Of a DNA stretch of 64,000 bases, positions 17,727-37,805 are shown one piece after another. The DNA is from Woeseiaceae bacterium. Its GTDB lineage: Bacteria > Pseudomonadota > Gammaproteobacteria > Steroidobacterales > Woeseiaceae. The DNA is taken from the NCBI GenBank assembly GCA_013043165.1, contig JABDOQ010000052.1:1-64000 (forward strand), read 5' to 3'. The number at the start of each line of letters is the position of its first letter. Positions within the stretch are counted from its first letter, which is position 1. The position numbers were made by a program, and so were the translations under genes. The notes beneath the pieces are model-generated. The model made no database searches. It saw only the letters and a list, made by a program, of their open reading frames with translations, and was not told where the DNA came from.

Positions 17727-17766
17727 AAGTCGTTCGAGGGTGGCGCGATGGCACCGCGCCGGCATG

Positions 17767-18462: not shown

Positions 18463-18612
18463 TACTTTTCTTGCGCGATTGATCACGTGACTCTCTCATC
18501 TGTATCCGGGTTTATGTTGTGAACACAGTCTACGGTTCCGAGCCGACCGATTGGTTGCAGCAATTTTCTATTTCGTAACAAAACGTATCAAAGGGCTTAT
18601 TGCGTAGTACCA

Positions 18613-19359: not shown

Positions 19360-19488
19360 AAGAAGATTCGGCACTTGCTCTTGCCGCCTTTAGGTTTCCT
19401 TTGCTTGGTTGCTGGAGAACGCAGGGTAGCGACACCTCATGGGCTGTTGATTACCAATCTGTATGCGTGTGTATCTGAAGGTTTCCGA

Positions 19489-20409: not shown

Positions 20410-20434
20410 GTTCCGTGGCTCTCCGTATACTGGG

Positions 20435-20447
20435 ATTTGTTACAAAT
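20435..20447. promoter_or_regulatory. 13-bp palindrome in the photolyase/NDUFA9-like divergent region
   Basis: ATTTGT and ACAAAT flank a central T in ATTTGTTACAAAT. It lies 26 bases upstream of the epimerase ATG and 75 upstream of the photolyase start, so a regulator here could act on both genes. No binding protein is known. Confidence 0.35.
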
Positions 20448-20522
20448 GCATACGTTTCTTATCCACCGCTAATCATATACTGCCTGTCCAGCCTCGACTT
20501 GCTCGCACCCGGAAAAAATATA

Positions 20523-21965: not shown

Positions 21966-22881
21966 TCGCCTCGCACTCTCGATCCCACTGAGGCGTTCCT
22001 GAAAATCGTTCCACCAGGAAATCGATGAACGCGCGTACGCGGTACGAGAGGTGTCGTGTCGGCGGGTAAATCGCGTAGGCGGGCGATATCGGCCAGGTAT
22101 GGTCGGTCAATATCGGCACGAGATTTCCACGCCGGATCGACTCTGCCGCGATGAACGTTGGCTGCATGACGATGCCCATGCCGTGCGCTGCCGCGTTCGC
22201 CAGAAAGTCGCCGCTGCTCGCAGACATGACGGAGTCAATGTCGATAGCGCGCTTGTTGCCCTCGTCATCGACGTAAGCCCATTTGTTCGGGTCCGTGAGG
22301 TTGGAGTAGACCAGGCATCGATGATCGCTCAAGTCAGCAGGCGTTTGCGGTTCACCGTGGACCTTTAGGTAATGCGGCGACGCACAAATGACCGTATGCA
22401 CGTCGAACAACCGCCGCGCGATGTGCGACGAGTCTTGCAGCCGGCCGATACGCAACGCGACGTCGATGCCCTCCTCGATGAGATCGATACGCCGGTCATT
22501 GAGATTCAGATCAAATTCCACTTTTGGATGCAGCTTGCTGAATGCAGCGATGGGCTTACACATATGGCGCACGCCGAATGACAGCGGTAAAGCCACCCGC
22601 AGTGTGCCGCGCAGCTCGCCGTGCTCCTGCTGGACCGCGGCTTCGGCTTCATTCAGGTCTGCGAGAATCCTGGCGCTGTGCTCGTAAAAACTGCTGCCCG
22701 TCTCGGTGAGGTTGAGAACCCGGGTGGTGCGGCGCAAGAGCTGGACCCCGAGCCGCTCCTCCAGCGCCGATACACGCCGGCTGACCGCCGATTTTGCCGA
22801 TTTGAGCCGATCGGCTGCCGCGGTGAAGCTACCGGCCTCCACCACGGCGACAAATGCCTGTAAATCCTCGAATTTATCCAT
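21937..22881 (-). CDS. LysR-family transcriptional regulator
   Basis: This 314-residue regulator has the N-terminal winged HTH (MDKFEDLQAFVAVVEAGSFT, then SAVSRRVSALEERLGVQLLR). A substrate-binding domain from about residue 90 contains FDLNLNDRRIDLIEEGIDVA and the SHIARRLFDVHTVICASPHY region typical of the CrgA/YhcS-like subgroup. It is divergent from azoR and pirin genes, which are often induced by quinones or electrophiles, so it probably controls them. The operator-like inverted repeat begins at the base next to its start codon. Confidence 0.9.
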   Translation of the reverse strand: MDKFEDLQAFVAVVEAGSFTAAADRLKSAKSAVSRRVSALEERLGVQLLRRTTRVLNLTETGSSFYEHSARILADLNEAEAAVQQEHGELRGTLRVALPLSFGVRHMCKPIAAFSKLHPKVEFDLNLNDRRIDLIEEGIDVALRIGRLQDSSHIARRLFDVHTVICASPHYLKVHGEPQTPADLSDHRCLVYSNLTDPNKWAYVDDEGNKRAIDIDSVMSASSGDFLANAAAHGMGIVMQPTFIAAESIRRGNLVPILTDHTWPISPAYAIYPPTRHLSYRVRAFIDFLVERFSGTPQWDRECEAITMRKGSVT

Positions 22882-22904
22882 ATTGTTGCGTATTTCGAAA
22901 CAAT
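22882..22904. promoter_or_regulatory. LysR-type operator candidate
   Basis: ATTGTT (22882-22887) and AACAAT (22899-22904) are perfect inverted half-sites 11 bases apart, which fits the T-N11-A rule for LysR regulators. The left half abuts the LysR ATG, and azoR starts about 90 bases to the right. This placement suggests autorepression together with activation or repression of azoR. Confidence 0.65.
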
Positions 22905-22993
22905 CTTGTCTTGAGACTAGCCTTTATCTCGATAATGTCAACAGCGAAACTGCCGACATGCCATCAAATCGGACACCAGCAGGAGCAAGATCT

Positions 22994-23614
22994 ATGAAAT
23001 CCCAGCAAACTCATGTTCTCGAGGTCAACGCCAGCGGACGCATCGACAACTCGGCCAGCCGCGCACTCACGCGCGACCTGATCGCCGCACTGGACGATCG
23101 CTATGGCAATGTGCAGACGGTTCGCCGCGACCTCGCGCATGGCGTTCCGTTTGTGGACGCTGAGTGGATCGAAGCCAACTTTACGCCGGACGACGCCCGC
23201 ACGGAAACGCACAGAAAGGCGCTCGCGTTGTCCGATTCCCTGGTTGCCGAACTCCGGAACGCCGATGTACTCATCATCGGAACGCCCGTCTACAACTTCT
23301 CGATCCCGGCTGCGCTAAAAGCATGGATCGATATGATTGCGCGTGCGCGCATGACGTTTCGCTACACGGAAAACGGCCCCAAAGGCCTGCTCGAGGGCAA
23401 GAAGGCGTATCTTATTGTGGCGACCGGCGGCGTTCCCGTGGGAAGCGACATGGATTTCGCAACGCCGTATCTGAAACATGCGCTTGCGTTCGTCGGCATT
23501 ACCGATGTCGAAATCATCGCCGCCGACAGACTCAACAGCCAGGCTGAAGAGTCCATGGACGCCGCGCGCGCGCAAATCGCAGAACTAGTTCATCTTGCGC
23601 CTCAGGCGGCGTAA
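22994..23614 (+). CDS. azoR: FMN-dependent NADH-azoreductase
   Basis: From the ATG after CAGGAGCAAG the protein has 206 residues. It is a flavodoxin-fold NAD(P)H dehydrogenase. The opening HVLEVNASGRIDNSASRALT binds the FMN phosphate, and PVYNFSIPAALKAWIDMIAR and KKAYLIVATGGVPVGSDMDF are family phrases. AzoR enzymes reduce azo bonds and quinones by two electrons and protect against electrophilic stress. The long open frame upstream to 22706 is chance. The pirin gene follows 20 bases later with its own strong ribosome-binding site, and the LysR gene is divergent. Confidence 0.9.
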   Translation: MKSQQTHVLEVNASGRIDNSASRALTRDLIAALDDRYGNVQTVRRDLAHGVPFVDAEWIEANFTPDDARTETHRKALALSDSLVAELRNADVLIIGTPVYNFSIPAALKAWIDMIARARMTFRYTENGPKGLLEGKKAYLIVATGGVPVGSDMDFATPYLKHALAFVGITDVEIIAADRLNSQAEESMDAARAQIAELVHLAPQAA

Positions 23615-23634
23615 GTCGAAGGAGGTAGTGAATC

Positions 23635-24333
23635 ATGCTCGATATTATCCGATCCGACAGCAGGGGCAGCGCAGACCATGGCTGGCTGCGCGCCAAGCAC
23701 ACATTCTCGTTCGCCGAGTACCAGAACCCCGAGCGCGTTAATTTCGGCAATGTTCGCGTGATCAATGAAGACCGCATTGCGCCGGGCAAAGGTTTCGGGA
23801 CTCATCCGCATCGTGATATGGAAATCGTTACCTACATCATCGATGGCGCCATCGAGCACAAGGACAGCATGGGCAACGGCACTGTAATTACAGCCGGGGA
23901 AGTACAACGGATGACGGCGGGCACCGGCGTGCAGCACAGCGAGTTCAATCACTCGCAAGACGATGAGCTGCACTTGCTGCAAATCTGGATCTACCCGGAG
24001 AAGAACGGCCTCGAGCCCGGCTATGAGCAGACGCACTTTCCGCGCGCAGAAAAACTCAATCGCCTGCGCCTGGTGGGATCACGCGACGGCCGGGAGGGCT
24101 CGGTGACCATCCACCAGGACGTTGACCTGTATGCGAGCGTTCTCGAGAAGGGCAAAGAACTGTCCCTCGACGTGCGCAGCGGTCGCAAAGTACTCATTCA
24201 GGTCGTCAGCGGCGACATCGATATCAACGGTCAACAATTGTTCGCGGGCGATGGCGCGCAACTTGAAGACGAGCGCACGCTGCGGATCAGCGCCTCTACC
24301 GAGGCCGAGTTCCTCTTGTTCGATATGGGCTGA
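23635..24333 (+). CDS. Pirin-family protein (YhaK-like)
   Basis: This 232-residue bicupin starts after GGAGG. The pirin motif is clear: SFAEYQNPERVNFGNVRVIN, then GFGTHPHRDMEIVTYIIDGA with the metal-binding His-x-His and Glu, and TAGTGVQHSEFNHSQDDELH with further metal-site histidine. The C-terminal cupin holds LEKGKELSLDVRSGRKVLIQ. E. coli YhaK and pirin have quercetinase or redox-sensor activity. Together with azoR and LysR it forms a compact quinone/electrophile module. Confidence 0.9.
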   Translation: MLDIIRSDSRGSADHGWLRAKHTFSFAEYQNPERVNFGNVRVINEDRIAPGKGFGTHPHRDMEIVTYIIDGAIEHKDSMGNGTVITAGEVQRMTAGTGVQHSEFNHSQDDELHLLQIWIYPEKNGLEPGYEQTHFPRAEKLNRLRLVGSRDGREGSVTIHQDVDLYASVLEKGKELSLDVRSGRKVLIQVVSGDIDINGQQLFAGDGAQLEDERTLRISASTEAEFLLFDMG

Positions 24334-24354
24334 CGGCAAGGTTAGACTGTGGGG

Positions 24355-26220
24355 ATGCGCCTTATTGCCCTGGTCTCGAACATGTTGCTGGTCGCCGCAT
24401 GCGGCGGTGGTAGCGGCAGCGCACCAGCCGTGCCGATGCTTCCCTTGTCCGACACAACCGCGATCGCCGCGGTCCAGGGGGACGGCGCGACGAGCCCGCT
24501 CGCGGGACAGGCGGTGTCGATCTCCGGCATTGTCACTGGCGATTTTCAAGACAATGATGATGACGACACCCGCAATCTCGGCGGTTTCTATGTTCAGTCC
24601 GAGGCCCCCGATGCAGACCCGATGACGTCTGACGGCGTCTTCGTTTATGACGGCAACAACCCCGCCGTTGACGTCAGTGTCGGCGAGCAGGTCAGCGTGC
24701 AGGGCACCGTGAACGAATACTTCGGCGAAACCCAGATTTCGCAACCGACGGTGAAGATCACCGGCTCAGGCTCAATCCAGGCGACGGAGATAAGCCTGCC
24801 GGCGAGCGGCACAACGACAAACGATGACGGTGACCTGATCGCCGACCTTGAACGTTACGAAGGGATGCTGCTTCGATTTCCACAGACACTTTCCGTCACC
24901 AACCTGCGAAACCTTGAGCGATTCGGCTCGGTCGGCTTATCGCAAGGTGGACGCCTCTATCAATTTACCAATGCCAATGCGCCGGATCCGGCCGCGTACT
25001 CGGCGCACAAAGCCTCCAACGCTCGCAGGACCATCGAACTCGACGACGGCCTGCGATCATCAAACCCGGCCACGATTCGATATCTCAATGCGGGCACCGC
25101 GTCCGGATACACGATTCGTACTGGCGACACCATTGCCGGCGTCAGCGGAAACCTGCGCTACTCGAGGGGCAGTGGCGGAAACGGCGATGAGGCATGGCGG
25201 TTAATGCCCACAGCAGGCCCGCAATTCGACTCGATGAACCCGCGCCCCGGTCGCCCGTCCGTCGGCGGCAGCGTCCGTGTCGCGAGTTTTAACGTCCTTA
25301 ATTTCTTCTCGACTATCGATGCAGGCCAAAGCGTTTGCGGTCCGCAGGGTACCGACAACTGTCGAGGTGCGGACAGCGCGGAAGAGCTCGACAGGCAACT
25401 CGCGAAGACGGTGTCGGCCCTGGCACTGCTGAACGCCGATGTCGTCGGGCTCATGGAGCTGGAAAATAACAGCAATGCTTCTTTGCAAAGACTCATCGAT
25501 GCGCTGAACACGAAAATCGGGGCCAACGATTTTGCGTTTGTCGATACGGGCACGATTCATGACGACGCGATAAAGACAGGCTTTATTTACAAATCATCGA
25601 CGATCGCACTGAGGGGCCGGTTCGCATTACTGGATCGCAGTGTGGATTCACGATTCAATGACTCAAGAAACCGTCCGGCGCTCGCACAGACATTCGAGGT
25701 GATCAGCACAGGCGCCGCACTAACCGTCGTTGTCAATCACCTGAAGTCCAAGGGTTCTCCCTGCGACGCCGACGGCGATGCCAACCTCGACGATGGACAA
25801 GGTAATTGCAACCAGACGCGAACCAGCGCCGCGACAGCGATTGCGGACTGGCTTGCGACGGACCCCACGGACAGCAGCGACCCCGACTACCTGATCATTG
25901 GCGACCTCAACGCCTACACACGCGAAGACCCGCTAACGGCATTTCACACTGCGGGGCTCAGCAAGCTGCTCGGCGCCGACACCCACCCGTACTCATTCGT
26001 TTACGATGCGCAGGCAGGTGCGCTCGATCACGCCATTGCCTCAGCCGACCTCGTGCCGCAGGTCGTTGACACGATTGACTGGCACATCAATGCCGATGAG
26101 CCCGCTCTGCTCGACTATAACCTTGAGAACGATCGCAACCCGGCGTTGTTCGACCCGGACTCGCCGTATCGGTCGTCCGATCATGACCCTGTCGTTATCG
26201 GCCTCGAACTGACGAATTGA
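24355..26220 (+). CDS. ExeM/NucH-type extracellular endonuclease lipoprotein
   Basis: From the ATG the protein has 621 residues; an in-frame GTG six bases upstream is the alternative. The signal ends in LLVAACGGG, a lipobox. An N-terminal OB-fold-like domain contains QAVSISGIVTGDFQDNDDDD and NLGGFYVQS. The catalytic endonuclease/exonuclease/phosphatase domain begins near residue 300 (VRVASFNVLNFFST). It includes DVVGLMELENN, VVVNHLKSKGSPC, DYLIIGDLNAYTREDPL and the final SSDHDPVVIGLEL. These residues form the metal and phosphate site. The family degrades extracellular DNA for phosphate or nitrogen scavenging. Confidence 0.9.
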   Translation: MRLIALVSNMLLVAACGGGSGSAPAVPMLPLSDTTAIAAVQGDGATSPLAGQAVSISGIVTGDFQDNDDDDTRNLGGFYVQSEAPDADPMTSDGVFVYDGNNPAVDVSVGEQVSVQGTVNEYFGETQISQPTVKITGSGSIQATEISLPASGTTTNDDGDLIADLERYEGMLLRFPQTLSVTNLRNLERFGSVGLSQGGRLYQFTNANAPDPAAYSAHKASNARRTIELDDGLRSSNPATIRYLNAGTASGYTIRTGDTIAGVSGNLRYSRGSGGNGDEAWRLMPTAGPQFDSMNPRPGRPSVGGSVRVASFNVLNFFSTIDAGQSVCGPQGTDNCRGADSAEELDRQLAKTVSALALLNADVVGLMELENNSNASLQRLIDALNTKIGANDFAFVDTGTIHDDAIKTGFIYKSSTIALRGRFALLDRSVDSRFNDSRNRPALAQTFEVISTGAALTVVVNHLKSKGSPCDADGDANLDDGQGNCNQTRTSAATAIADWLATDPTDSSDPDYLIIGDLNAYTREDPLTAFHTAGLSKLLGADTHPYSFVYDAQAGALDHAIASADLVPQVVDTIDWHINADEPALLDYNLENDRNPALFDPDSPYRSSDHDPVVIGLELTN

Positions 26221-26223
26221 CGT

Positions 26224-27123
26224 CTATTCCGGCTTGCGAAATTTCAGCGTCATGCGATTCGATTCGCCGATCGCCTCGATTTCGGCCTTGAGGTCCGGAT
26301 TGTCAGCGCTGGTAGCGAATGAGGGTGGCAGCCGCCAGACGATGTCATCTTCTCCCGGTTGATCCATCGGGTTGGCGTTGATGTCGCTTTCGGCGATGAA
26401 CTCGAAGCCGGCCTGCTCGGCCGCAGCGATGACAAACGATTTCTTGAGATAACCATGGCTGCCGTCTGCGAACGCGTCGGACATCTCTTCGCGCGCATGG
26501 TGCTGCACGATGCCGAGCGTGCCGCCAGGTTTCAGTACATTGAAGGCATCGTCGAGCAAAGCGGTCAAATAACCGCCTTCGTCTTCAAAATTCGCGGCGT
26601 TGTGCAACACCCTGGCGAGAAATACTACGTCGGCCGTAGCCAGCATCGATGCTGGCGTTGAACCGAAAATAAAAGCACTCACCGTCGCGCTGTCGTCATC
26701 TCGCCACTCTTCGGCGCCGACCGGCCAGTCCGTCGTCCAGGTCCGCATCTTCTCGACGAACTCAGCGGTGCCAAATGCAAAATTTGGCCACATGTCCAGT
26801 GCGTAGTTTGCGCCGATCAGGTGGCCTTCCTTACCCAGGTAAGGGAGCAGGATTCGCGTGTACCACCCGCCACCGGGGAGCCCCTCGACGACCGTCATGC
26901 CGGGTTCAATGTCGAAAAATTCCAGCGTTTCTTTCGGGTGACGATACTGATAGCGCGCCTGTACGTCGGCAGGCTGTGCATCGAGCACTATGGCCAGGCG
27001 ACTGTTTTCCGCAGGCGGAGCGGCAGTTGCCATCTTCTTGGCGCCGGCTTCTACCGGTGTCTCGACGGCCGGTTGACAGGCAGAGACCGTAAATACCAGG
27101 AGTAACCCAATGTACTTGTGCAT
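26224..27123 (-). CDS. Exported lipoprotein with SAM-methyltransferase fold
   Basis: The protein has 299 residues from the ATG at 27123, which follows TGGGGA. A GTG 15 bases upstream is less likely. The N-terminus MHKYIGLLLVFTVSACQPAV is a clean lipoprotein signal. The mature part is a class I methyltransferase-like fold. Motif I is the unusual TVVEGLPGGGWYTRILLPYL in place of the usual D-x-G-x-G-x-G. Later parts include DVVFLARVLHNAANF and GTLGIVQHHAREEMSDAFAD. Such secreted methyltransferase-like proteins occur in several marine groups, but S-adenosylmethionine is not expected in the periplasm. The real function is unknown. Confidence 0.75.
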   Translation of the reverse strand: MHKYIGLLLVFTVSACQPAVETPVEAGAKKMATAAPPAENSRLAIVLDAQPADVQARYQYRHPKETLEFFDIEPGMTVVEGLPGGGWYTRILLPYLGKEGHLIGANYALDMWPNFAFGTAEFVEKMRTWTTDWPVGAEEWRDDDSATVSAFIFGSTPASMLATADVVFLARVLHNAANFEDEGGYLTALLDDAFNVLKPGGTLGIVQHHAREEMSDAFADGSHGYLKKSFVIAAAEQAGFEFIAESDINANPMDQPGEDDIVWRLPPSFATSADNPDLKAEIEAIGESNRMTLKFRKPE

Positions 27124-27168
27124 GAAATTCCCCAACACACCCAGATTCGACAGGTTGAAAATTATGCG

Positions 27169-27606
27169 TCAGTCGAGGCTTTGCAGCAACGCGTGAGTGT
27201 CCTTTCGAACCTCGCCAAGCGCAGCAATGATCCTGTCGTAGCTGTCCCTGTCGGGCCCGAGGCCTTGCCAGTCCTCGTCCCACACCTTCCACAGCTGCGT
27301 GGCGGATGCCGGAACATCACCGTCGAGCACTTGCGACAAATCCTTGATGGTCAGCACCAGCGCCCACCCGGTAAGCGGGTTGCCTTTGTCTTCGGCGTCC
27401 ATTTCCCAATGACGATGATAGACGACCTGCTGGAGTTCGCCGGCGTTACGCAGAACCTCCATCGAAATCAGGCGCTGATTCCGATTGTGCTCGCTGACCT
27501 CATTTCGCCACGTATTATAGCCAAGGCTGCTAATCGCAATAACAAGGCTGATCAATGCAACCGCGTTGCGTTGTAGTTGCTCTCGTATTCGGACTTTGTT
27601 CGGCAT
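27169..27606 (-). CDS. Membrane-anchored hypothetical protein
   Basis: The 145-residue protein starts at an ATG after AGGAGTGAGTG; a GTG one codon before is possible. It has one N-terminal membrane helix (NAVALISLVIAISSLGYNTW). A charged soluble domain of about 110 residues follows, with a helical heptad look (NRNQRLISMEVLRNAGELQQ). No family is recognised. It lies on the same strand between the MFS and methyltransferase-like genes. Confidence 0.6.
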   Translation of the reverse strand: MPNKVRIREQLQRNAVALISLVIAISSLGYNTWRNEVSEHNRNQRLISMEVLRNAGELQQVVYHRHWEMDAEDKGNPLTGWALVLTIKDLSQVLDGDVPASATQLWKVWDEDWQGLGPDRDSYDRIIAALGEVRKDTHALLQSLD

Positions 27607-27653
27607 CACTCACTCCTGTGCCCCCAGTCTATTAGACCGGCGCTCGGGATCGA

Positions 27654-28931
27654 TTATTTCGTGCCGGACGACGCTCGCGATGGCCACTGTGCATGCCTGT
27701 CAGATCGCTGCAGGCGCAGCAGCACGCCGACGACGGCGATTCCGATCGTCGCAACGGCTGTCAGAAACAAGAAGTAGTTCTGGTGACCGACAACGCCCGG
27801 TGACGCGTCCAGAATACGACCCGTGATCGGCGCAAAGAATATTTCCGGTGTGTAGCCCACAAAGGACACCATCCCGGCGACCGCCCCGGTCAGCAATGCC
27901 GGCGTCTTGTTTTCTTCGAGCAGCGCGAAGTACACGCCGCGCAATGCGAAGACTGCGAAAAAACTGACAAGGATATTTGCGTAGATAACCATCAGCCCGG
28001 AGCCGTCGGGTAATGCGATCGAGAGCATGCCGTAGCTCATGAGCAAGACGAAGAACGAGGCACCAATCGTCTTGCTTGCGCTCCAGCGGTCTGCGGCAAA
28101 TCCGGCCGTGATTGCCGCAAAAGGCCGTATGTAGGCGCCGTAAGCCGACAGTTGGGCCCCCTCGATTTCATCCATACCCAGCACTTGCACCGCATACAGC
28201 GAGTAGTTGTCGAGCCCTTTATAGCCGCAGTAGGCACAGACAATGACGGCTGCCTGAGCCCAAACCAGTGGCCGTCGCGTGACGAGCGCTGCATTGTGAA
28301 AGAGCCCCTGACTGCTGTCGCCAACGTGCTTCACCGGCGGAATCAGCAACCACGTCAGTCCGGCCGTTACGATCGCGGCGATCGAATACATAAAAATCAC
28401 AGCGCGAAATGCGGCGCGCCGCTCCTCGTTGGTCACGTTCGCCGCGTCATCCGGCAAGTACCCGGCGAGAACTGCGATGCCCAAGGTTGCGAATATCGCA
28501 GCTGCTATGCCGCGACCGCCCTCGAGAACACCGAACGCCCGCCCTTGCGACGTGTGGCCGCCCCACTCGCGGGTCGCCCGAATAAGCGCCGCCCAGAACA
28601 ACAGTATCGTCGTGACGCCCCAGTAGCCATACAGCAACGCCATTCCCCACACGCCCGGATACGTCGCCATGTAGAAGCCACCAGCGCCTGTCGCAAGCAG
28701 CGAGACGGTAAGAAGAGACCGCGCCGAAAATCGGTCGGCCAGCATGCCACCGGGAAAGTACGCAAGCATCGCCGTTACGCCATACACCGCAAATACGTCG
28801 CCGAGCTCAGTGTTGGTAAAACTGAAGGCCTCTAGCAGGGTTGGCCGAAAGAATCGCGCTGTATGGAATGGCAGGCCGAAGACAATCTCACCAGCGACCA
28901 CGAGCGTGATGATCAAAAAATATCGTGACAT
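27654..28931 (-). CDS. Major facilitator superfamily transporter
   Basis: The chosen ATG at 28931 gives 425 residues beginning MSRYFLIITLVVAGEIVFGL. The frame continues 309 bases upstream, but that part overlaps the VOC gene in another frame. Twelve hydrophobic segments are present, with an MFS A-motif-like loop (GGMLADRFSARSLLTVSLLA) and a second-half loop (GFAADRWSASKTIGASFFVL). The family moves small solutes across the inner membrane. The substrate is unknown. It starts 14 bases after the VOC gene's stop, which suggests cotranscription. Confidence 0.85.
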   Translation of the reverse strand: MSRYFLIITLVVAGEIVFGLPFHTARFFRPTLLEAFSFTNTELGDVFAVYGVTAMLAYFPGGMLADRFSARSLLTVSLLATGAGGFYMATYPGVWGMALLYGYWGVTTILLFWAALIRATREWGGHTSQGRAFGVLEGGRGIAAAIFATLGIAVLAGYLPDDAANVTNEERRAAFRAVIFMYSIAAIVTAGLTWLLIPPVKHVGDSSQGLFHNAALVTRRPLVWAQAAVIVCAYCGYKGLDNYSLYAVQVLGMDEIEGAQLSAYGAYIRPFAAITAGFAADRWSASKTIGASFFVLLMSYGMLSIALPDGSGLMVIYANILVSFFAVFALRGVYFALLEENKTPALLTGAVAGMVSFVGYTPEIFFAPITGRILDASPGVVGHQNYFLFLTAVATIGIAVVGVLLRLQRSDRHAQWPSRASSGTK

Positions 28932-28944
28932 ATGGCTTAGCTCA

Positions 28945-29343
28945 TCAGGGGTCGTAAGACGCGTCGACGAGCCTCCTGGAAATCCACCAGGCGTTTCCGG
29001 CCGGATCGGTGATTCCCGCTTGCCTGTCGTCGTAAGACATGTCGGCCGCGTCGAACAGCTTGACGGCTCCGTTTCCGATCGCTTTTTCGAGTGTTTGGTC
29101 AACGTCTTCGACGTAAACATAGTAGGAGCCCGGCATCGGCAGTATGTTCTCGTTGTCCGCCTCGCCCACCATGAATGTCGACGTACCGATCCGGATCCTT
29201 GCGTTTGCCACGCGACCGCCCGGAAACTCAGTCCTGCCAACTTCCTCGGCGTCGAAAACCTTGCTCAGGAAATCGATGAATTCGTTTGCGTCGTTCACGA
29301 TCATGTATGGAAACACTGTTCCGTAGCCGTCCGGTATATACAT
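28945..29343 (-). CDS. VOC-family protein (PhnB/glyoxalase-like)
   Basis: From the ATG at 29343, which follows GAGAGGTG, the protein has 132 residues; a start six codons upstream is possible. The sequence shows two beta-alpha-beta-beta-beta modules of vicinal oxygen chelate proteins: YMIVNDANEFIDFLSKVFDA, then SYYVYVEDVDQTLEKAIGNG and ITDPAGNAWWISRR. PhnB-like members have no known catalytic role; others act as glyoxalases or drug-binding proteins. It lies directly upstream of an MFS transporter, which may point to resistance or export of a shared ligand. Confidence 0.82.
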   Translation of the reverse strand: MYIPDGYGTVFPYMIVNDANEFIDFLSKVFDAEEVGRTEFPGGRVANARIRIGTSTFMVGEADNENILPMPGSYYVYVEDVDQTLEKAIGNGAVKLFDAADMSYDDRQAGITDPAGNAWWISRRLVDASYDP

Positions 29344-29669
29344 CGTGTCACCTCTCTCCATTTATGACGTGCAAGAAGCTCGCTCGACAGCTTCTTTATC
29401 TAAAGCCCGAAAAGCCACCCGGATACGCGAAATGTGGTCGATCAACCTGCTTTGATGATATGGCATGGAAACACCCCCAACGAAGCGACATTGACGTATT
29501 ATAGGCTTCACGAACCCGGATGGCCGCGTAATGAACTGAAAACAAATTCAGGCCAATCGTCAGCTCGACCTCCGATTCGTGGATTGGTACTGCCGTTACC
29601 TGGACCAATAATCGTCATTTCTTGTTATTGTTGGTCAGGCGACTTTATCTTTTTTTGGGAGGTGCAACC
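29344..29669. other. 326-bp intergenic region between the VOC and AlgP-like genes
   Basis: No protein-coding frame here looks real. The region holds the VOC ribosome-binding site, an 8-bp inverted repeat AAGAAGCT/AGCTTCTT at 29373-29396 and an imperfect stem GACCAATAA (29603-29611) with TTATTGTTGGTC (29625-29636). A GGGAGG ribosome-binding site for the lysine-rich protein lies at 29657-29662. A divergent promoter pair is expected. Confidence 0.5.
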
Positions 29670-30299
29670 GTGACTAAGGAACTGAGCGATCTTGAAAAAA
29701 CCCTGCAACAGACGAAGAAACAATTTCTGACATCCGCCAAGCGCGCGACCAGGGAGTTGGACCGGCAACGGAAAAGCCTGAGAAAAGAAATCAGTAAAGC
29801 GAATGCACGTGCCAAGCGGACGCGAGCTCAACTTCAAAAGAAGACCGAGCGGCTGGCGAAGACGACGGCGAACAAGGCCAAACGGGAGCTCAGGAAACAA
29901 ATACGTAGCCTGGAAAAGATGCTCGACGGTGCCCGCGACGATGCGGTTCAGTTACGCAAAGACCTCGCTCCGGTTATGGACGACCTGGGCAACGCCCGCG
30001 ATCATCTGTCTCATGCGCTGCATGTAGACCGGGCACTGGCCAAGATTCGACGGCAGCTGGCCGGCAAGCCGGCGAGGAAGAAGGCCAGGAAGAAAAAGGC
30101 CACTAAGAAAAAAGGCGCGAAGAAAAAGGCTGCCAAGAAAAAAGCCACTAAGAAGAAAGCGACAAAGAAAAGAGCCACCAAGAAGAAGGCGGCGAAGAAG
30201 AAGGTCGCCAGGAAGCGACCGGCAAAGAAAAAGGCAACAAAGAAGAAAGCGGTCCGTAGAAAAGCGCCGGCACGCAGAAAGAAGGCCCGACGCGCCTAG
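29670..30299 (+). CDS. AlgP/histone H1-like lysine-rich protein
   Basis: The 209-residue protein starts at GTG, seven bases after GGGAGG; the frame upstream is discarded. Residues 1-130 form a charged coiled coil (for example SDLEKTLQQTKKQFLTSAKR and KRELRKQIRSLEKMLDGARD). Residues 132-209 are an almost acid-free tail of Lys/Arg/Ala in KKATKKK and KKAAKKK repeats. The layout matches Pseudomonas AlgP, PhaF and related histone H1-like proteins that bind DNA non-specifically and can affect nucleoid compaction or granule partition. Whether it acts on DNA or on storage granules cannot be told from sequence. Confidence 0.8.
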   Translation: MTKELSDLEKTLQQTKKQFLTSAKRATRELDRQRKSLRKEISKANARAKRTRAQLQKKTERLAKTTANKAKRELRKQIRSLEKMLDGARDDAVQLRKDLAPVMDDLGNARDHLSHALHVDRALAKIRRQLAGKPARKKARKKKATKKKGAKKKAAKKKATKKKATKKRATKKKAAKKKVARKRPAKKKATKKKAVRRKAPARRKKARRA

Positions 30300-30326
30300 G
30301 AATCCGCCTGATCGGTCGGGCGTGCG

Positions 30327-32384
30327 CTATTCGTCAGTCTCGGCAAGCCTCGCGGCATGCTCGAGCTCGTAAGGAGGCGGTGCGCCACCCGGCCCTTTCA
30401 GGTAATGGTCCATCCAGCGCTTGAACCGCAAGGCATAATCATACGTCGCAGCGGTGTTGCGATTACCGTGCTCTTCGCCTGGATAAATGACCAGGCGGAC
30501 CGGCGTATCCGTGCGGAGTTTGATGTGGCGATACATCTCCAGCGATTGGCTCGGGTGAACTCTCGGATCTTTGTCGCCCCCCATGATCAAGAGCGGCGTT
30601 TTCGCCTTGTCCGCGTGATAAACGGGGCTGCGCTTTAGCATCCACATCCAGTCTTCCCACGGCCAGGCGCGGGAATGAACGTTATACATCTCGTACGGAA
30701 TATCTCCGGTACCGAACTTGGAAACCTGGTTTGAAATTCCGACGAACGCAACAGCCGCTGCGTATTCATGACTGAGTGCAGTGGCGCCCCACATGGAAGC
30801 GTAGCCCCCGTAGGAACCGCCGGAAATACCGACGCGCTGCGCATCGGCCAGTCCCTTTTCGACCAGGTGTGTCTTGACGTCGACGATATCGTTGAATTCC
30901 TCCTCGGCGTAATCATTCTGACCGAGTTTTGAAAAGAGGACCCCGCGACCCGTGCTGCCACGGTAGTTCGGATAGACAACCGCATAGTCCTCTGCCGCCA
31001 TGACCTGCCCGGGCTGACTGTAACTCGACATCCAGCCATTCGATTGATGAGCCTCCGGGCCACCGTGAACGAAGACAACCAGAGGGTTGCCGCCTCTCTT
31101 CTCATTGAACGGATGAATCAGGACCGCTTCGAGCTCCAGGCCATCGCGCGCCGTGTATTTGATCGCCTCCTGCTTCGCCAATTTACGTTGACCAAGAATC
31201 GGGTTCGAGTTCGTCAGGCGCTTGGCTTCGCTACCGTCGCGCAACAAATACACTTCGGGTGGGTGTTGCGGCGTATCCGCGATGGCTGCAGCGACAGCTT
31301 GTCCCGGACGCGCATCGACCGACCGCAATATCGGTCCTGAAGACGGCGCCGATCCTTCTGAATTGGCGCTTGCGGTCGAGGCCGACGACCATTGCGTCCA
31401 GAGGCCACGCTGGCCCAACCAGCGGATGCTGGAATCGTCCCGCCAGGCGAAGTCGCCGATATGTCCCGGGTACTCCGGCACCAGATCGCGCCGAGCGCCG
31501 CCGCTTGCCGGCATGACGTATAGCCTGCCCTCACTCGGATCATTGATATCAACACTGCCGATGTAAGCAAGGTCTGCACCGCTCGGCGAGAACTCGAATC
31601 GCCCGAGCTTGCCCGTCGAACCCGCCTTGGCCAGAACCTTGCCGCTCGCAGCGCCGACGACGTAGATGTCGCGCGACGTGTACGAGTCATCGATCAATGG
31701 TGTCGGGGCCAGGCTGACGGCATAACGATCTCCATCGGGTGCCCACGCCAGGTTGGACGCGGAACCCGGCAGCTGCTGCGCGACCGCTACATTCGTTTCC
31801 AGATCGAGCATCCAGACCTTGGTTACAGGAACCGACTCTTCGTAGACAACCGCTTTGAATCCCTTGGTTTCGAGCTCGTCATGCTTTTGCGGCGGGGCGT
31901 CACTCGCCAGGAACGCGATGCGCTTGCCGTCGGGTGCCGGGAAAATAAGGCCCATCGCATTGACGTGTGTGAATTTTTCTATGGCCTCGCCGCCGGCAAT
32001 GGCAATTTCGAACAGCGAATTGAAGGTCGCATCCGGGTCCCGCTTCGCAACAAAATACAAAGACTGTCCGTCCACCGACCATGCAGCAGTCGAAATTTCG
32101 ATATTACCGATGACGTAGGGGCGCGAGACGCCGTCAAGATCGACGACGTGTAGTTCCTTATAGGGCAAGCCGTCGTCATCCTTGTAGATTTCTCGAGGCA
32201 CAGACAGCAAGTATGCGATTTGGTCGCCCGCCGGACTCATGAAAACACCGGTCACACGTTTTAATGCAACAACTTCTTCCAGGCTAAGCGCATCGGATTG
32301 GGCGACGGCTGTCGGAGAAAATGACAGCGTCATCAACAGAAACAAACTGGCGGTGCGAAAGCATTGGCGGATAGATGTGATCAT
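30327..32384 (-). CDS. S9-family prolyl oligopeptidase-like peptidase, secreted
   Basis: From the ATG at 32384 the protein has 685 residues with a signal peptide (MITSIRQCFRTASLFLLMTL, cut near AVAQS). Beta-propeller repeats occupy residues 40-400. The alpha/beta-hydrolase domain follows, with the nucleophile in VGISGGSYGGYASMWGATAL, aspartate in PLLIMGGDKDPRVHPSQSLE and histidine in VIYPGEEHGNRNTA. This matches acylaminoacyl-peptidase/DPP-like S9 enzymes, which cleave short peptides, here in the periplasm or outside. The VIT gene is divergent, 161 bases away. Confidence 0.9.
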   Translation of the reverse strand: MITSIRQCFRTASLFLLMTLSFSPTAVAQSDALSLEEVVALKRVTGVFMSPAGDQIAYLLSVPREIYKDDDGLPYKELHVVDLDGVSRPYVIGNIEISTAAWSVDGQSLYFVAKRDPDATFNSLFEIAIAGGEAIEKFTHVNAMGLIFPAPDGKRIAFLASDAPPQKHDELETKGFKAVVYEESVPVTKVWMLDLETNVAVAQQLPGSASNLAWAPDGDRYAVSLAPTPLIDDSYTSRDIYVVGAASGKVLAKAGSTGKLGRFEFSPSGADLAYIGSVDINDPSEGRLYVMPASGGARRDLVPEYPGHIGDFAWRDDSSIRWLGQRGLWTQWSSASTASANSEGSAPSSGPILRSVDARPGQAVAAAIADTPQHPPEVYLLRDGSEAKRLTNSNPILGQRKLAKQEAIKYTARDGLELEAVLIHPFNEKRGGNPLVVFVHGGPEAHQSNGWMSSYSQPGQVMAAEDYAVVYPNYRGSTGRGVLFSKLGQNDYAEEEFNDIVDVKTHLVEKGLADAQRVGISGGSYGGYASMWGATALSHEYAAAVAFVGISNQVSKFGTGDIPYEMYNVHSRAWPWEDWMWMLKRSPVYHADKAKTPLLIMGGDKDPRVHPSQSLEMYRHIKLRTDTPVRLVIYPGEEHGNRNTAATYDYALRFKRWMDHYLKGPGGAPPPYELEHAARLAETDE

Positions 32385-32545
32385 GAAAGTAGTGCCCCGG
32401 TTTCTTGGTAATTCTGCGTTAGCAGTTGCAACGGTGTTGGCGAGCAAGATGCCCGCCCGGAGGATAAACCCGGCACGGTTTCAATGCCAGCTGCCGCCGG
32501 ACGCATGGTAGGATTCCGACGAGCAAATTTCGAGCGAGTTATCCA

Positions 32546-33235
32546 ATGAGTCACCACGAACACCACAAGGCCCATCGCGTAGGATGGTTGCGCGCGGCCG
32601 TTCTGGGCGCAAACGACGGCATAGTCTCGACCGCGAGCCTGATTATTGGTGTCGCCGCGGCAAGTAGCACCCACGGCAATATTCTGCTCGCCGGCGTCGC
32701 CGGCCTGGTCGCAGGCGCGATGTCAATGGCGGCAGGCGAGTATGTCTCCGTCAGCTCACAGGCCGACACTGAGAATGCTGACCTGGAGCTCGAACGGCTG
32801 TCTCTGGAGCATGATTTCGAGACCGAAAAAGTGGAGCTTGCGGAAATCTACGAAAATCGCGGGCTGGAACCTGCATTGGCGCTACAGGTTGCCGGGCAGT
32901 TGATGGAGCATGACGCCCTGGGAGCGCACGCCAGGGATGAAATCGGCATCTCCCATATTGTCAGCGCTCAGCCGGTACAGGCGGCGATTTCTTCGGCGGC
33001 TACGTTCGTCGTCGGTGCAGCTCTTCCCCTGGCTGTAGCGTGGGCAATGCCCGGGCCTAAGCTTATTTCCGCGGTCGCTGTATCTTCCCTCGCCTTCCTC
33101 GCCCTGCTTGGCGCATTGGCGGCTCGCGCTGGCGGCGCGCCGATTGTTGCCGGCGCTACTCGCGTTTGTTTTTGGGGCGCGCTCGCAATGGCGCTGACGG
33201 CGGGTGTCGGGCGGCTATTTGGCGTCGTCGCCTGA
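32546..33235 (+). CDS. VIT1/CCC1-family transporter
   Basis: This 229-residue membrane protein belongs to the vacuolar iron transporter family. It starts with the conserved HKAHRVGWLRAAVLGANDGIVST. MSMAAGEYVSVSSQADTENA and the cytoplasmic metal-binding domain follow, with glutamates in LEHDFETEKVELAEIYENRG and HDALGAHARDEIGI. Three hydrophobic segments complete it. The family moves Fe2+ or Mn2+ out of the cytoplasm. It overlaps by reading frame with, but ends eight bases before, the M64 peptidase, which suggests one transcript. Confidence 0.9.
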   Translation: MSHHEHHKAHRVGWLRAAVLGANDGIVSTASLIIGVAAASSTHGNILLAGVAGLVAGAMSMAAGEYVSVSSQADTENADLELERLSLEHDFETEKVELAEIYENRGLEPALALQVAGQLMEHDALGAHARDEIGISHIVSAQPVQAAISSAATFVVGAALPLAVAWAMPGPKLISAVAVSSLAFLALLGALAARAGGAPIVAGATRVCFWGALAMALTAGVGRLFGVVA

Positions 33236-33242
33236 GGATCGC

Positions 33243-34658
33243 ATGATGAAACGATTTGTAAAAAGGCATACCTATACCGCCCTGGTCTTCGCGGTGCTGA
33301 CTTCGTCAGCCTGCGCTGCAGAAATTCCCGGAACGATGCGTGTCGATTTTTTTCACAGCGGCAATCACTCGGCCGAGTTGCTCAGTCTGGATCAGCTTGT
33401 GATCGAGCCGCTGCCCTGGACCGGCAATATGGCACAGCCCATCGACCGCACGCTGCGTGGCAAATACCTTTTCGAAATCGTGAGCAACGGGGTGACCGCA
33501 TGGTCGAGAAGCTTCAGCAGTATCTACGGTGAATGGGAAACGACGTCCGAGGCGCGAGAAATCAATCGTTCTTTTCATGAATCCGTACGATTCCCGTCGC
33601 AGGACGAAGTCTTTGAGATCGTTTTGAAGAAACGCGACGCGAACAATCAGTTCGAGGAAATCTGGCGCATCGAACTCGATCCGGATGATGTTCTCGTGCA
33701 TCGGGAATCGGCCAGGTACGCCGACAAGGTTATTGCCATTCACAAAGGCGGTGATCCGGCCAACACCGTGGACCTCTTGCTCATGGGTGATGGTTACACG
33801 GCCGAAGAACACGATGCGTTTATCGACAAGGCGAAAATGCTTGCCGACGTGTTATTCGCGACATCACCGTTTAAGGAGCGCAAGGATGACTTCAATATCT
33901 GGGCCCTTGCACCGGCCGCGCCACAATCCGGCGTGTCGAGACCATCGACGGGCACTTACCGGGATTCACCGATTGGTGCCACCTACGATGCGTTTCGTTC
34001 AGAGCGTTACATACTGACGTTTGATAACAAGTCGATGCGCCGAATTGCTTCGTCGGCGCCGTACGATTTTATCGAGATCCTGACCAATACCGATGTATAC
34101 GGCGGCGGCGGAATTTACGGCTTGTTCAGCACAGCCGCTGCGAACAGCGAATGGGCGCCGTACCTGTTCGTGCACGAATTCGGGCATCATTTTGCCGGAC
34201 TGGCCGACGAGTACTACACGAGCTCGGTCGCTTACGAGGCTCCAGCTGAAATTTCGGAACCCTACGAACCCAACGTCACGGCTTTGCTCGACCCGAAGAA
34301 GCTGAAGTGGAAACACCTCGTGCAGTCAGAGACCCCATTGCCAACGCCGTGGCCAAAGGCTGAATTCGAGAAGCATTCGATTGCCGTGCAGCAACGTCGC
34401 GCAGAAATGCGTGCGGCCAACGTCAGCGAAGCCGAAATGAATTCGCTCTTTCGGTACACCAGGGATTATGCTGACGCGCTGTTCGAAAAGTCCGGTCAAG
34501 AAGGTGTGGTCGGTGCGTTCGAAGGCGGTAATTACCAGGCCGAAGGCTACTATCGATCCGAACAGAATTGCCTGATGTTCACGCGTTCTGAATCTTTCTG
34601 TGCGGTCTGTGCCGCAGCTATCGAGAAGGTCATCGACGAATACACAGTGTCGGACTGA
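33243..34658 (+). CDS. M64-family (IgA peptidase-like) metallopeptidase, secreted
   Basis: From the first of two adjacent ATGs the protein has 471 residues with a signal peptide (MMKRFVKRHTYTALVFAVLT, then SSACAAEIP). The catalytic site FVHEFGHHFAGLADEYYTSS is the HExxHxxGxxDE pattern of M64 peptidases. Upstream, NTVDLLLMGDGYTAEEHDAF and FNIWALAPAAPQSGVSRPST are typical of the family. Related secreted proteins from Bacteroides and Clostridium cleave IgA or mucin; in a marine cell other substrates are likely. A C-terminal Cys cluster (NCLMFTRSESFCAVCAAAIE) may form disulfides. It follows VIT by seven bases. Confidence 0.85.
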   Translation: MMKRFVKRHTYTALVFAVLTSSACAAEIPGTMRVDFFHSGNHSAELLSLDQLVIEPLPWTGNMAQPIDRTLRGKYLFEIVSNGVTAWSRSFSSIYGEWETTSEAREINRSFHESVRFPSQDEVFEIVLKKRDANNQFEEIWRIELDPDDVLVHRESARYADKVIAIHKGGDPANTVDLLLMGDGYTAEEHDAFIDKAKMLADVLFATSPFKERKDDFNIWALAPAAPQSGVSRPSTGTYRDSPIGATYDAFRSERYILTFDNKSMRRIASSAPYDFIEILTNTDVYGGGGIYGLFSTAAANSEWAPYLFVHEFGHHFAGLADEYYTSSVAYEAPAEISEPYEPNVTALLDPKKLKWKHLVQSETPLPTPWPKAEFEKHSIAVQQRRAEMRAANVSEAEMNSLFRYTRDYADALFEKSGQEGVVGAFEGGNYQAEGYYRSEQNCLMFTRSESFCAVCAAAIEKVIDEYTVSD

Positions 34659-34759
34659 CGCGCACCGACCGCTTCAAATAGCGGGCAACCCGCGGTGACT
34701 ACCACGCCGCCCGCGAAGCCCATAGCCAGCCCGTCGAGTTCAATCTTGTGAGTGGTCGC

Positions 34760-35521
34760 TCAGGTTCTGAGTTTATAGCCGGTTTTGAAGACCCAGCGCA
34801 CGATGGCCAGACACGCGATCAGAAACGCGACCGCCATGCCGAGGCTTAAGAAGACGCTGACATCAGCGTTCTCGTAAAAGCTCCAGCGGAAACCGCTGAT
34901 GAGGTAGACCACGGGGTTAAACAGGCTGATCGTCTGCCAGACCGGGGGCAGCATGCTGATTGAGTAGAATGTGCCGCCCAGGAACGTCAGCGGCATGATG
35001 ACGAGTATCGGCACAATCGTCAGCTTTTCCCAGCCATCGGCCCAGATGCCAAGCAGGAATCCGAACAGGCAGAACGATACGCAGGTCAGCAACAGGAACG
35101 CGACCATGATGACGGGGTGAGCGATTTCGAGATCGACAAAAAAGCTCGCGGTTCCGAGGATAATCGTGCCAATGATGACCGATTTTGTAGCGGCAGCACC
35201 AACGTAGCCCAATAACACCTCGCCATACGACACCGGTGCCGACAGCACCTCGAAGATCGTGCCGGTAAATTTCGGAAAGTAGATGGCGAATGACGAGTTC
35301 GAAATGCTCTCGGTCATTATCGACAACATGATCAGGCCCGGCACGATGAACGAGCCATAGCTCACGCCGTCGATCTCCGTAATACGGGAGCCGATCGCGG
35401 AACCGAATATGACGAAATACAGTGACGTCGACAGCACCGGCGCGACGATGCTCTGTACGACGGTCCGGAACATACGCGCCATCTCATAACGATAGATGGC
35501 TTTAACAGCATGAAAATTCAT
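34760..35521 (-). CDS. ABC-2 type transporter permease (YadH-like)
   Basis: The protein has 253 residues with six membrane segments. ABC-2 phrases include [20 protein letters not shown] and the C-terminal half-signature [20 protein letters not shown], followed by [20 protein letters not shown]. This matches the YadH/ NodJ-like exporters that pair with a DrrA-like ATPase. The first base of its start is shared with the ATPase stop (TGATG). With MarR and the ATPase it forms an apparent drug or lipid exporter operon, but the substrate is unknown. Confidence 0.88.
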
Positions 35522-36444
35522 CAGGTTTTTTTCACCAGGTCGACGAAGATATCCTCAAGCGAACTTTGCGTGGTCTGTAAATCATTGAATCGAATACCGG
35601 ACCTGCGCAAGTCATTGATCAGGTCCGTAATTCCGGTGTGCTCCCCTTTGGTGTCATACGTATAAACAAGCCTGCGCCTGTTTCGGCTTAGCTCAAGGTT
35701 ATAGTTGCTGAGTTGAACTGGCACATCATCGAGCTCTTCGTACAAATTCAGCATGAGCTGCTTCTTGCCCATCTCGCGCATCAGTTTCTTCTTGTCCTCG
35801 ACCAGAATGATCTCACCGTTGTTGATAACACCGACCCGATCCGCGAGCTGTTCCGCCTCTTCTATGTAGTGCGTCGTCAGGATGACAGTCACGCCTTCCT
35901 TGCGCAGGCTCTTCACAACATTCCACATGTCCTGACGAAGCTCGACATCCACGCCGGCCGTGGGCTCATCGAGAAACAGTATCTCGGGCTCATGGGCCAG
36001 TGCCTTCGCTATGAGCACGCGGCGTTTCATGCCACCCGACAATTCCATGCTTTTCGTGTCTTTCCTGTCCCACAGGGACAGTGACTTCAACACTTTCTCG
36101 AGGTGGTCGGAATTGGCCGCTTTACCAAACAGGCCGCGGCTGAATCGGCAGGTATTCCATACCGTTTCGAAGCTTTCGGTCGGCATCTCCTGGGGCACGA
36201 GACCAATCTTGGCGCGAGTCTGGCGAAAGTCGCTGACGATATCGTCACCGTCGACCAGTACTTTGCCCTCGGTCAGGCGGGTAATGCCGCAAACGATGTT
36301 GATCAACGTCGTCTTGCCGGCACCGTTAGGCCCCAGCAGCGCAAAGATTTCGCTTTTGTTGATGGCCAGGCTGACGTTTTTGAGCGCCTGAAACCCACCG
36401 GCGTAGGTTTTGGTAAGGTCTCGGATGTCGATCACGGTATGCAC
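35521..36444 (-). CDS. ABC transporter ATP-binding protein (YadG-like)
   Basis: This 307-residue ATPase has Walker A ([20 protein letters not shown]), signature ([16 protein letters not shown]), Walker B ([20 protein letters not shown]) and the H-loop ([20 protein letters not shown]). A C-terminal extension of about 85 residues is typical of ABC-2 export ATPases. It works with the following permease gene. The MarR gene lies 75 bases upstream on the same strand and probably controls the operon. Confidence 0.92.
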
Positions 36445-36519
36445 GCCACGATGATACGACGAAAACGTTTTCGATAGTCAGCCCTTCGTCGGATGAAGCC
36501 CTATGCGGCGCATTGACGC

Positions 36520-36978
36520 CTACCTGGTCAGCAGCTGATCCAGTGCTTTGCCGACGCGGGTCATCACTTCGCCGGTCATTTGCAGTTCATTATCTTGCAT
36601 TACCGACGCCATCGCATCGATGATTTTGTTTTGTCGCTCAAACGACATCCGTACGAGTTTGCGGCCGGCTTCGGTCAGGCTAAGGCACTTGTTGCGTGTG
36701 TCGTTGGGGTCGCAGTCGCGACGTACCAGGCCCCTCGATTCGAGCTTCTTGATAAGCGCGGACACGTTGCTCTTTACGACCAGCAGGTTCTCCGCGAGCT
36801 GCTTCTGCGTAATGCCGTTTTTTTGCCAGATGGAGAGCAGGATCTCGTGCTGCGCCAGGGACAGATCGAGTTCGCCGAGGGACTGGTTTAGCGCACGATG
36901 GACTTTGAGATTGGTCCGTCCGACAGCCAGCCAGACGTCAAAACCTCGTGTTTTTTCGAGCTTTTCCCCGGATTTCAT
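36520..36978 (-). CDS. MarR-family transcriptional regulator
   Basis: From the ATG at 36978 the protein has 152 residues; the GTG start 21 bases upstream lies inside an operator-like palindrome and is less likely. The winged helix is visible in LSLAQHEILLSIWQKNGITQ, then NVSALIKKLESRGLVRRDCD and PNDTRNKCLSLTEAGRKLVR. MarR proteins are dimeric repressors released by phenolic or electrophilic ligands, or copper/oxidant. The gene is upstream of the ABC operon on the same strand and divergent from the alpha/beta hydrolase, so both are likely targets. Confidence 0.9.
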   Translation of the reverse strand: MKSGEKLEKTRGFDVWLAVGRTNLKVHRALNQSLGELDLSLAQHEILLSIWQKNGITQKQLAENLLVVKSNVSALIKKLESRGLVRRDCDPNDTRNKCLSLTEAGRKLVRMSFERQNKIIDAMASVMQDNELQMTGEVMTRVGKALDQLLTR

Positions 36979-36993
36979 CCACGCAGAATAACA

Positions 36994-37007
36994 GTTCACT
37001 TGTGAAC
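36994..37007. promoter_or_regulatory. MarR operator candidate 1
   Basis: GTTCACTTGTGAAC consists of the perfect inverted halves GTTCAC and GTGAAC around TT. It lies directly upstream of the MarR coding region. Its centre is exactly 42 bases, four helical turns, from that of operator 2. Confidence 0.7.
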
Positions 37008-37035
37008 CGTCTACGGTCTGGTTAAACTCCGTTTA

Positions 37036-37049
37036 GTTCATAGATGAAC
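37036..37049. promoter_or_regulatory. MarR operator candidate 2
   Basis: GTTCATAGATGAAC has the same 6-2-6 architecture and core letters as operator 1 (consensus GTTCAY-N2-RTGAAC). It overlaps the first possible ATG of the hydrolase at 37044, which favours the downstream ATG at 37065 as the real start. Confidence 0.7.
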
Positions 37050-37064
37050 CATCAGGAACCTGCA

Positions 37065-37805
37065 ATGCAAGAATACAGTGCTGACTACGAAGCGCCGAGC
37101 CGGCTCGCGACGCTCATGGAGCTGCGCGCGCCGCTCGACTGGGCATCACTGCTCTATCGGGCACCGCAGCTCGCCGCCGCACCCAGAGGTGACGGCAGGC
37201 CGGTGATGCTGATCCCGGGCTACGGGACGGACGAACTGTCGATGCGTCCGCTGGGCCGTTATCTTCAGTACCTCGGGTATGACGTCTACGACTGGGCGCA
37301 GGGACGCAACCGCGGCGATGTCGAAAATGACATTCAGCGCGTCGGCCAACGAACACGAGAAATCCACGATGCACTGGGCAACGCGCCGCTGACTTTGATC
37401 GGCTGGAGCCTGGGCGGCGTGTCGGCAAGAGAAGCGGCCAGGTTGTTCGAGCCCTACGTCAGGGAAGTCATAACACTGGGTACGCCGATTATCGGCGGAC
37501 CCAAGTACACCACGGTCGGTCGTCGGTTCGCGGAAATGGCAAACCTGGATCTCGATGAGTTCGAGAAAGAAGTGCATGCGCGCAACTCGATTGGTATCAG
37601 GCAGCCCGTTACGTCAATATACAGCAAGTCCGATGGTGTAGTTGCCTGGCAGGCAAGTATTGATACCTACAACAAGCAGGCCCGGAACATTGAAGTTAAC
37701 AGCTCGCATTTCGGGCTCGGCGCCAACGGCAAGGTTTGGTACCTGATTGCCAAGCTCCTCGCGGGCCGCGTGACAACCGGCAAAGGGGTCCGGGTCGTCG
37801 ACTAG
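37065..37805 (+). CDS. Alpha/beta hydrolase (lipase-like)
   Basis: The protein has 246 residues from the ATG after AGGAACCTGCA. An oxyanion-hole region (PVMLIPGYGTDELSMRPLGR) and the nucleophile elbow in LTLIGWSLGGVSAREAARLF are clear (Gly-Trp-Ser-Leu-Gly). The segment REVITLGTPIIGGPKYTTVG and an Asp region (SIYSKSDGVVAWQASIDTYN) complete a PGAP1/lipase-like catalytic core. No signal peptide is seen, so it acts in the cytoplasm. Divergent from MarR, it may be derepressed by the same ligand that it degrades. Confidence 0.82.
   Translation: MQEYSADYEAPSRLATLMELRAPLDWASLLYRAPQLAAAPRGDGRPVMLIPGYGTDELSMRPLGRYLQYLGYDVYDWAQGRNRGDVENDIQRVGQRTREIHDALGNAPLTLIGWSLGGVSAREAARLFEPYVREVITLGTPIIGGPKYTTVGRRFAEMANLDLDEFEKEVHARNSIGIRQPVTSIYSKSDGVVAWQASIDTYNKQARNIEVNSSHFGLGANGKVWYLIAKLLAGRVTTGKGVRVVD

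Follow-up and report, generated by a model that had tools for sequence, protein, structure and literature searches.

Two matched palindromes in the gap between a MarR-family regulator gene and a divergent lipase-like hydrolase gene are predicted to be operators of the adjacent MarR, which would act as an autorepressor and as a repressor of the hydrolase, with the distance between the operators set by the promoter; we put the probability of this reading at about 0.83. The locus lies in a 64,000-nucleotide stretch of a Woeseiaceae bacterium contig (the window), from the genome here called G000. Judged from the sequence, a dual MarR operator in the divergent promoter is very probably present; it is ordinary in kind, and its type of arrangement is already known. 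It provides a regulatory prediction for uncultured Gammaproteobacteria, with GTTCAYNNRTGAAC as the operator consensus for this MarR clade, and it predicts a leaderless message for the repressor. Judging from the entries listed, a search of a literature collection found no publication on this MarR–hydrolase locus.

The two matched 6-2-6 palindromes that a first-pass annotation had reported in the MarR–hydrolase gap are real. Site 1 (GTTCACTTGTGAAC, 36994–37007) and site 2 (GTTCATAGATGAAC, 37036–37049) were both confirmed as perfect palindromic 14-mers, neither assigned to a strand, lying 42 bp apart start to start and centre to centre. The gap that holds them is bounded by the marR start at 36978 (minus strand) and the hydrolase start at 37065 (plus strand). 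Scanning the window with the consensus GTTCAYNNRTGAAC, we found full matches at sites 1 and 2 only. Allowing up to two mismatches gave 10 matches against 7.7 expected; these weak matches are noise, and a wider regulon drawn from them was dropped because their number is that of chance. Among the 31 perfect 6-2-6 palindromes in the window, sites 1 and 2 form the only pair within 100 bp whose arms differ by at most one base, and a comparable pair arose in 1 of 150 simulated order-1 windows and in 0 of 150 order-3 windows. Across the whole 3.19-Mb genome there are three full-consensus matches, where the GC-corrected expectation is about 0.5. The third falls within an open reading frame, and so do the extra full-consensus matches in two related genomes, one each in G009 and G023.

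The regulator (152 amino acids; 36520–36978, minus strand, start ATG at 36978) matches Pfam MarR with an E value of 3.9e-16, its PF01047 domain scoring 59.1 bits against a curated cut-off of 24.6. Its five orthologues are 59–87% identical to it. The AlphaFold model has a pLDDT of 83.9, and its best Foldseek matches are MarR/MepR-type regulators (MepR, MarR and ST1710). The divergent gene encodes a lipase-like alpha/beta hydrolase (246 amino acids; 37065–37805, plus strand; Pfam Abhydrolase_1, 2.5e-7). Its model is well folded (pLDDT 87.2) with Foldseek matches to lipases and esterases, and Ser115, Asp190 and His215 are invariant in 14 of 14 aligned sequences (locus L050 of G075 was omitted from the alignment owing to a stop codon in its stretch), so the protein is probably an active serine hydrolase. 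A search by sequence against solved structures gave no match to the hydrolase, and a plasmid collection gave three matching records, at most 37.5% identical.

We examined the distribution of the locus in a genus set of 73 genomes, own genome included, with a threshold for MarR orthologues of E up to 1e-20. Six of the 73 genomes carry a MarR orthologue, and all orthologues found belong to one genus. In each of the six, the regulator is divergent from this hydrolase and both sites lie between the two genes, site 2 with two mismatches in G093. The palindromes thus passed the test of conservation in orthologous MarR gaps that had been proposed for them, and the conserved pairing with a MarR orthologue supports the earlier suggestion of a dual operator for the divergent MarR. 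G093 has a MarR together with its two-mismatch site 2, so site 2 is not essential everywhere. A genus-wide search for two full-consensus sites with 18–48 bp between them recovered the pair in 5 of 73 genomes, each time at the MarR–hydrolase locus, and in none of the reversed-pattern controls. These five genomes are all among the six with MarR, the sixth being G093 with its degenerate site 2. When the six gaps were compared, site 1 was invariant at 14 of 14 positions and site 2 at 10 of 14, against 18 of 59 in the rest of the gap (one-sided Fisher p 1e-6, for columns that are not independent of phylogeny or promoter constraint).

A wider search started from the hydrolase, homologues of which were matched in 42 of 119 genomes. 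The best 30 loci were scanned with up to two mismatches, and seven of them carry the site pair. Some hydrolase loci are incomplete on the relevant side: L052 starts at a contig end, and the upstream parts of L051, L054 and L056 are truncated. When 15 of the hydrolase loci were searched with MarR by tblastn, matches came only from the six MarR genomes. Site 2 has the full consensus in six of the seven pair-bearing genomes. Three of these six (G000, G067 and G036) have it as a strictly perfect palindrome; the other three (G009, G023 and G075) carry T and G as the inner arm bases, which are not Watson–Crick partners.

The seventh pair-bearing genome, G036, keeps the hydrolase and both sites, and no MarR orthologue was found in its assembly; it was accordingly excluded from the site-versus-gap count. 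Because site 2 is still a perfect palindrome there, one could argue that another regulator reads the palindromes and that MarR is merely their neighbour. We consider this very unlikely: all five full-consensus pairs fall among the six MarR genomes, the sixth of which also has the pair with a degenerate site 2, and the G036 assembly is 76% complete with a site 1 that departs from the consensus (three bases differ, one of them against the consensus). The reading in which the adjacent MarR is the cognate regulator is also in keeping with what lies upstream of the G036 hydrolase, where the marR −10 and ATG are gone and the hydrolase promoter geometry persists. In place of MarR, G036 has a gene for a putative lipoprotein and one that is Lgt-like, the G009 homologue of which matches Pfam LGT. 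This locus (L090, contig C60, about 6850–7080), which retains the hydrolase promoter geometry and a perfect site 2 in a genome that yielded no MarR, reflects either loss of the regulator or an incomplete assembly.

From the bases around the sites we infer two overlapping promoters. The predicted hydrolase promoter (37000–37028, plus strand) has a −35 element, TTGTGA, at 37000–37005, inside site 1, and a −10 element, TAAACT, at 37023–37028; the spacer is 17 bp, and the predicted +1, at about 37035, directly precedes site 2, which would thus cover +2 to +15 of the hydrolase transcript. In seven of seven genomes, TTGTGA (CTGTGA in G036) occupies the right half of site 1 and is followed, after 17 bp, by TAnA(C/A)T, with site 2 beginning 7 or 8 bp past the −10. 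The predicted marR promoter (36985–37013, minus strand) has a −35 element, TAGACG, at 37013–37008 and an extended −10, TGTTATTCT, at 36993–36985. Site 1 makes up 14 bp of its 17-bp spacer as well as overlapping the predicted hydrolase −35. All six MarR genomes share this layout: TAGACG (TAGAAA in G075), a 17-bp spacer consisting of site 1 plus TGT, and then TAnnnT. Each predicted promoter in the window has only 8 of the 12 bases of the sigma-70 consensus, and a consensus promoter scan of the window with a cut-off of 9 called neither.

The distance from the marR −10 to the ATG is exactly 6 nt in six of six MarR genomes, with varying sequence. The predicted +1 therefore coincides with the A of the ATG at 36978, leaving no room for a leader or a ribosome site, and because the ATG keeps this exact distance from the predicted −10 in every case, the marR mRNA is probably leaderless.

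The distance between the site centres is 42 bp in G000, G009, G093 and G023 and 43 bp in G067, G075 and G036. The first-pass annotation had described it as exactly four helical turns; that figure holds as an approximation, fitting four of the genomes and missing in three. In any promoter with a 17-bp spacer, the −35 element and the start point are about this far apart. Because site 1 lies on the predicted hydrolase −35 and site 2 at the predicted hydrolase start point, the dimensions of the promoter explain a spacing of 42 or 43 bp without cooperativity. The same annotation had inferred from helical phasing that the operator is cooperative, with dimers touching on one face of the DNA and a four-turn spacing selected for their contact. 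We regard such contact as unlikely. The spacing is indeed near four turns of 10.5 bp in seven of seven genomes, but its 1-bp shifts fall between the hydrolase −10 and site 2; because they lie outside the 17-bp promoter spacer, which is constant in seven of seven genomes, the promoter alone accounts for the distance. Moreover, two footprints of 24 bp, the size given for SCO3205 of Streptomyces in the part of its report available (PMC3737563), would leave roughly 18 bp of uncovered DNA between the dimers, and the motifs of EstR from Agrobacterium are 53 bp apart at locus L127 and are reportedly bound separately (PMC5201249, in part). Phasing thus lends no support to cooperativity, since the 42- or 43-bp spacing follows the predicted promoter elements. 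As promoter dimensions alone can place operators ‘four helical turns’ apart, caution is warranted in inferring cooperativity from such a distance.

For the circuit as a whole, we infer binding of MarR to the sites, repression and release by an inducer as follows. MarR dimers would occupy both palindromes and repress marR and the divergent hydrolase gene. A single dimer on site 1 would block both promoters, covering the marR spacer and the hydrolase −35, and a dimer on site 2, at the start of the hydrolase transcript, would provide a second block affecting the hydrolase alone. Release of MarR from the DNA, and with it derepression of both genes, would be brought about by an inducer; plausible candidates are a hydrolase substrate or product and a small hydrophobic molecule. 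With no leader on marR, the repressor could be remade once its promoter fires. The 42- or 43-bp spacing would be set by the promoter, from −35 to +1, and not by contact between dimers. The more specific proposal of a leaderless autorepressor, in which marR transcription starts at the ATG, one operator within a spacer silences both promoters and a second one, at +2 to +15, adds to the silencing of the target, has in our estimate slightly better than even odds. On the regulator side, the distances in this layout (17 bp, then 6 nt) do not vary by a single base among the six genomes where MarR was found. If true, such an arrangement would hold the repressor at a low level while allowing its rapid recovery.

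The closest parallel in layout is EstR–estC of Agrobacterium. As described in the available part of the report (PMC5201249), this MarR regulator is divergent from an alpha/beta hydrolase gene, both genes are repressed, and the two footprinted operators, 14-bp palindromic or near-palindromic elements (GTTATCGCGATAAC and AATATCGCGATAAG), overlap both promoters and are bound by EstR separately; the estC start point is 34 nt before its ATG. The window locus shares with that partial description the divergent MarR and hydrolase genes; two 14-bp operators overlapping both promoters are predicted here from sequence, in six of six MarR genomes. The operator motif, as far as it is given in the same text, is not the same as that of the window, and the motifs are spaced differently (53 bp at the EstR locus, L127, against 42–43 bp here). 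EstR and the window MarR are 30% identical over 91 amino acids, whereas EstC and the window hydrolase are not detectably homologous, the best local alignment having an E value of 0.1 over 19 residues. A further difference is that the window marR is predicted to be leaderless, and a leaderless regulator was not seen for EstR–estC in the portion of the report available (PMC5201249). The window locus is thus laid out like EstR–estC; we claim a likeness of layout and not membership of that system.

Two further systems were compared from partial texts. SCO3205 of Streptomyces is described as having two independent pseudo-palindromic operators in the gap to sco3204, predicted from a comparison of orthologues and later footprinted (PMC3737563, in part). 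It resembles the window in having two MarR operators in the gap to the neighbouring gene and differs in the consensus given there, TTnAAnnnTCAA; the likeness is one of layout and not of compared proteins. CrtR of Corynebacterium, in the available part of its report (PMC5401885), is a MarR repressor divergent from its target, with its own gene derepressed about 2-fold on deletion and its transcript reported as leaderless. The window regulator resembles it as a divergent, autoregulated and leaderless MarR repressor, the window's own properties being predicted. By the same partial account, CrtR differs in that it requires a short TTAA motif in the target promoter for binding, that the target is a carotenoid operon and that isoprenoid pyrophosphates are the signal named in the title (PMC5401885).

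The signal of the window MarR is probably not a peroxide sensed by a cysteine of the EstR type, judging from the protein sequences. The sensing Cys16 of EstR corresponds to Trp16 in the window MarR group, invariant in six of six; this position was reached by extending the ungapped pairwise alignment two residues outwards, and a seven-sequence MAFFT alignment has a gap near it. Residues 1–80 contain no cysteine in any of the six MarR proteins. The best NCBIfam match is OhrR (NF052638), at 55 bits against a cut-off of 200 and thus below threshold. Redox sensing as in EstR and OhrR was rejected as the default, since the sensing cysteine is absent and the OhrR model falls below its cut-off. A cysteine pair near the wing (C89 and C98 in the window MarR) is present in four of the six proteins, and was rejected as a conserved sensor because the G067 and G075 proteins lack it.

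For the hydrolase, the first-pass annotation had preferred the downstream of two possible start codons, and comparison among genomes agrees with that choice. The upstream ATG at 37044 overlaps site 2. Its frame is stopped within a few codons in four of seven genomes (G009, G023, G067 and G075); in G093 it lacks a start codon and is the wrong frame, which leaves G000 and G036 as the only genomes where it is open. With the upstream frame open in only these two and a Shine–Dalgarno-like AGGAA at 37054–37058 (plus strand) preceding the ATG at 37065, the latter is likely to be the start of the hydrolase. Six of the seven genomes have AGGA or GGGA 3′ of site 2, the exception being G075.

On the other side of marR lies an ABC-2 transporter pair recognised by Pfam and NCBIfam (34760–36444, minus strand; ATPase 35521–36444, permease 34760–35521), which is a neighbour outside the conserved module. 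A close permease homologue (E below 1e-100) is present in 64 of 99 genomes (52 of 61 in the genus and 12 of 38 others), so that the exporter is common across the genus and is mostly found in genomes without this MarR, itself present in 6 of 73. In two of the six MarR genomes, the window species and G093, MarR and the ABC genes point the same way, and no gene of opposite direction was recognised between them. G009, G023 and G067 have a DUF547 gene on the opposite strand between the two, and the best permease homologue of G075 is on another contig. Because the exporter is widespread against MarR in 6 of 73, because other genes intervene and because of the separate contig in G075, the sequences indicate that the exporter is a neighbour here and not a conserved partner; the DUF547 genes and the off-contig permease also led us to reject the exporter link as a conserved feature.

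The first reading of the locus had placed the exporter and the hydrolase under joint control through a shared ligand, which the contrast between 64 of 99 genomes for the permease and 6 of 73 of the genus for MarR does not support. Such control could come about by read-through from marR, with export and hydrolysis answering one ligand. In the window species read-through is possible: the ABC ATPase frame begins 75 bp past marR on the same strand, and no minus-strand terminator-like site was called. In G093, too, everything is on one strand, with genes for a putative lipoprotein and an Lgt-like protein lying between MarR and the ABC genes. Against it stand the mismatch in distribution, the opposite-strand DUF547 gene in three genomes, the separate contig in G075 and a separate perfect palindrome, CGAAAACGTTTTCG (36460–36473), that precedes the ABC genes here and in G009, and we think control of the exporter by MarR improbable. 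The CGAAAACGTTTTCG element lies just before the ABC ATPase start, has two mismatches in G036 and in G000 contig C103, and could be a separate operator for the transporter genes.

Finally, the window shows a break in identity at about 36085. Between 17619 and 36085 it is 98.5–99.9% identical to a contig of G067 (99.6% over 17619–35618 and 98.5% over 35500–36090). Identity drops sharply at about 36085, inside the ABC ATPase gene, to 82% over 36090–36480 and 71–76% over the MarR and hydrolase genes. Compared with G036, the window is 77–82% identical to the left of 36085 and, to the right, 89% over the 5′ end of the ABC gene and 91% over the hydrolase. Contig C103 of G000 carries a second, diverged syntenic copy of parts of 21414–36485 (75–82% identical). 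Its beginning (L118, 1–250) lies inside the 3′ end of a MarR-like gene and a brief DUF547-like stretch, and over 244 bp it matches G009 at 95% identity. Next come ABC genes, for which G036 is the nearest (89%) of the four compared. The pattern at 36085 indicates either a recent transfer or a contig that is joined or contaminated, in one or other of the two assemblies (G000 or G067). The break is 900 bp to the left of the operators, which were confirmed independently in other genomes.
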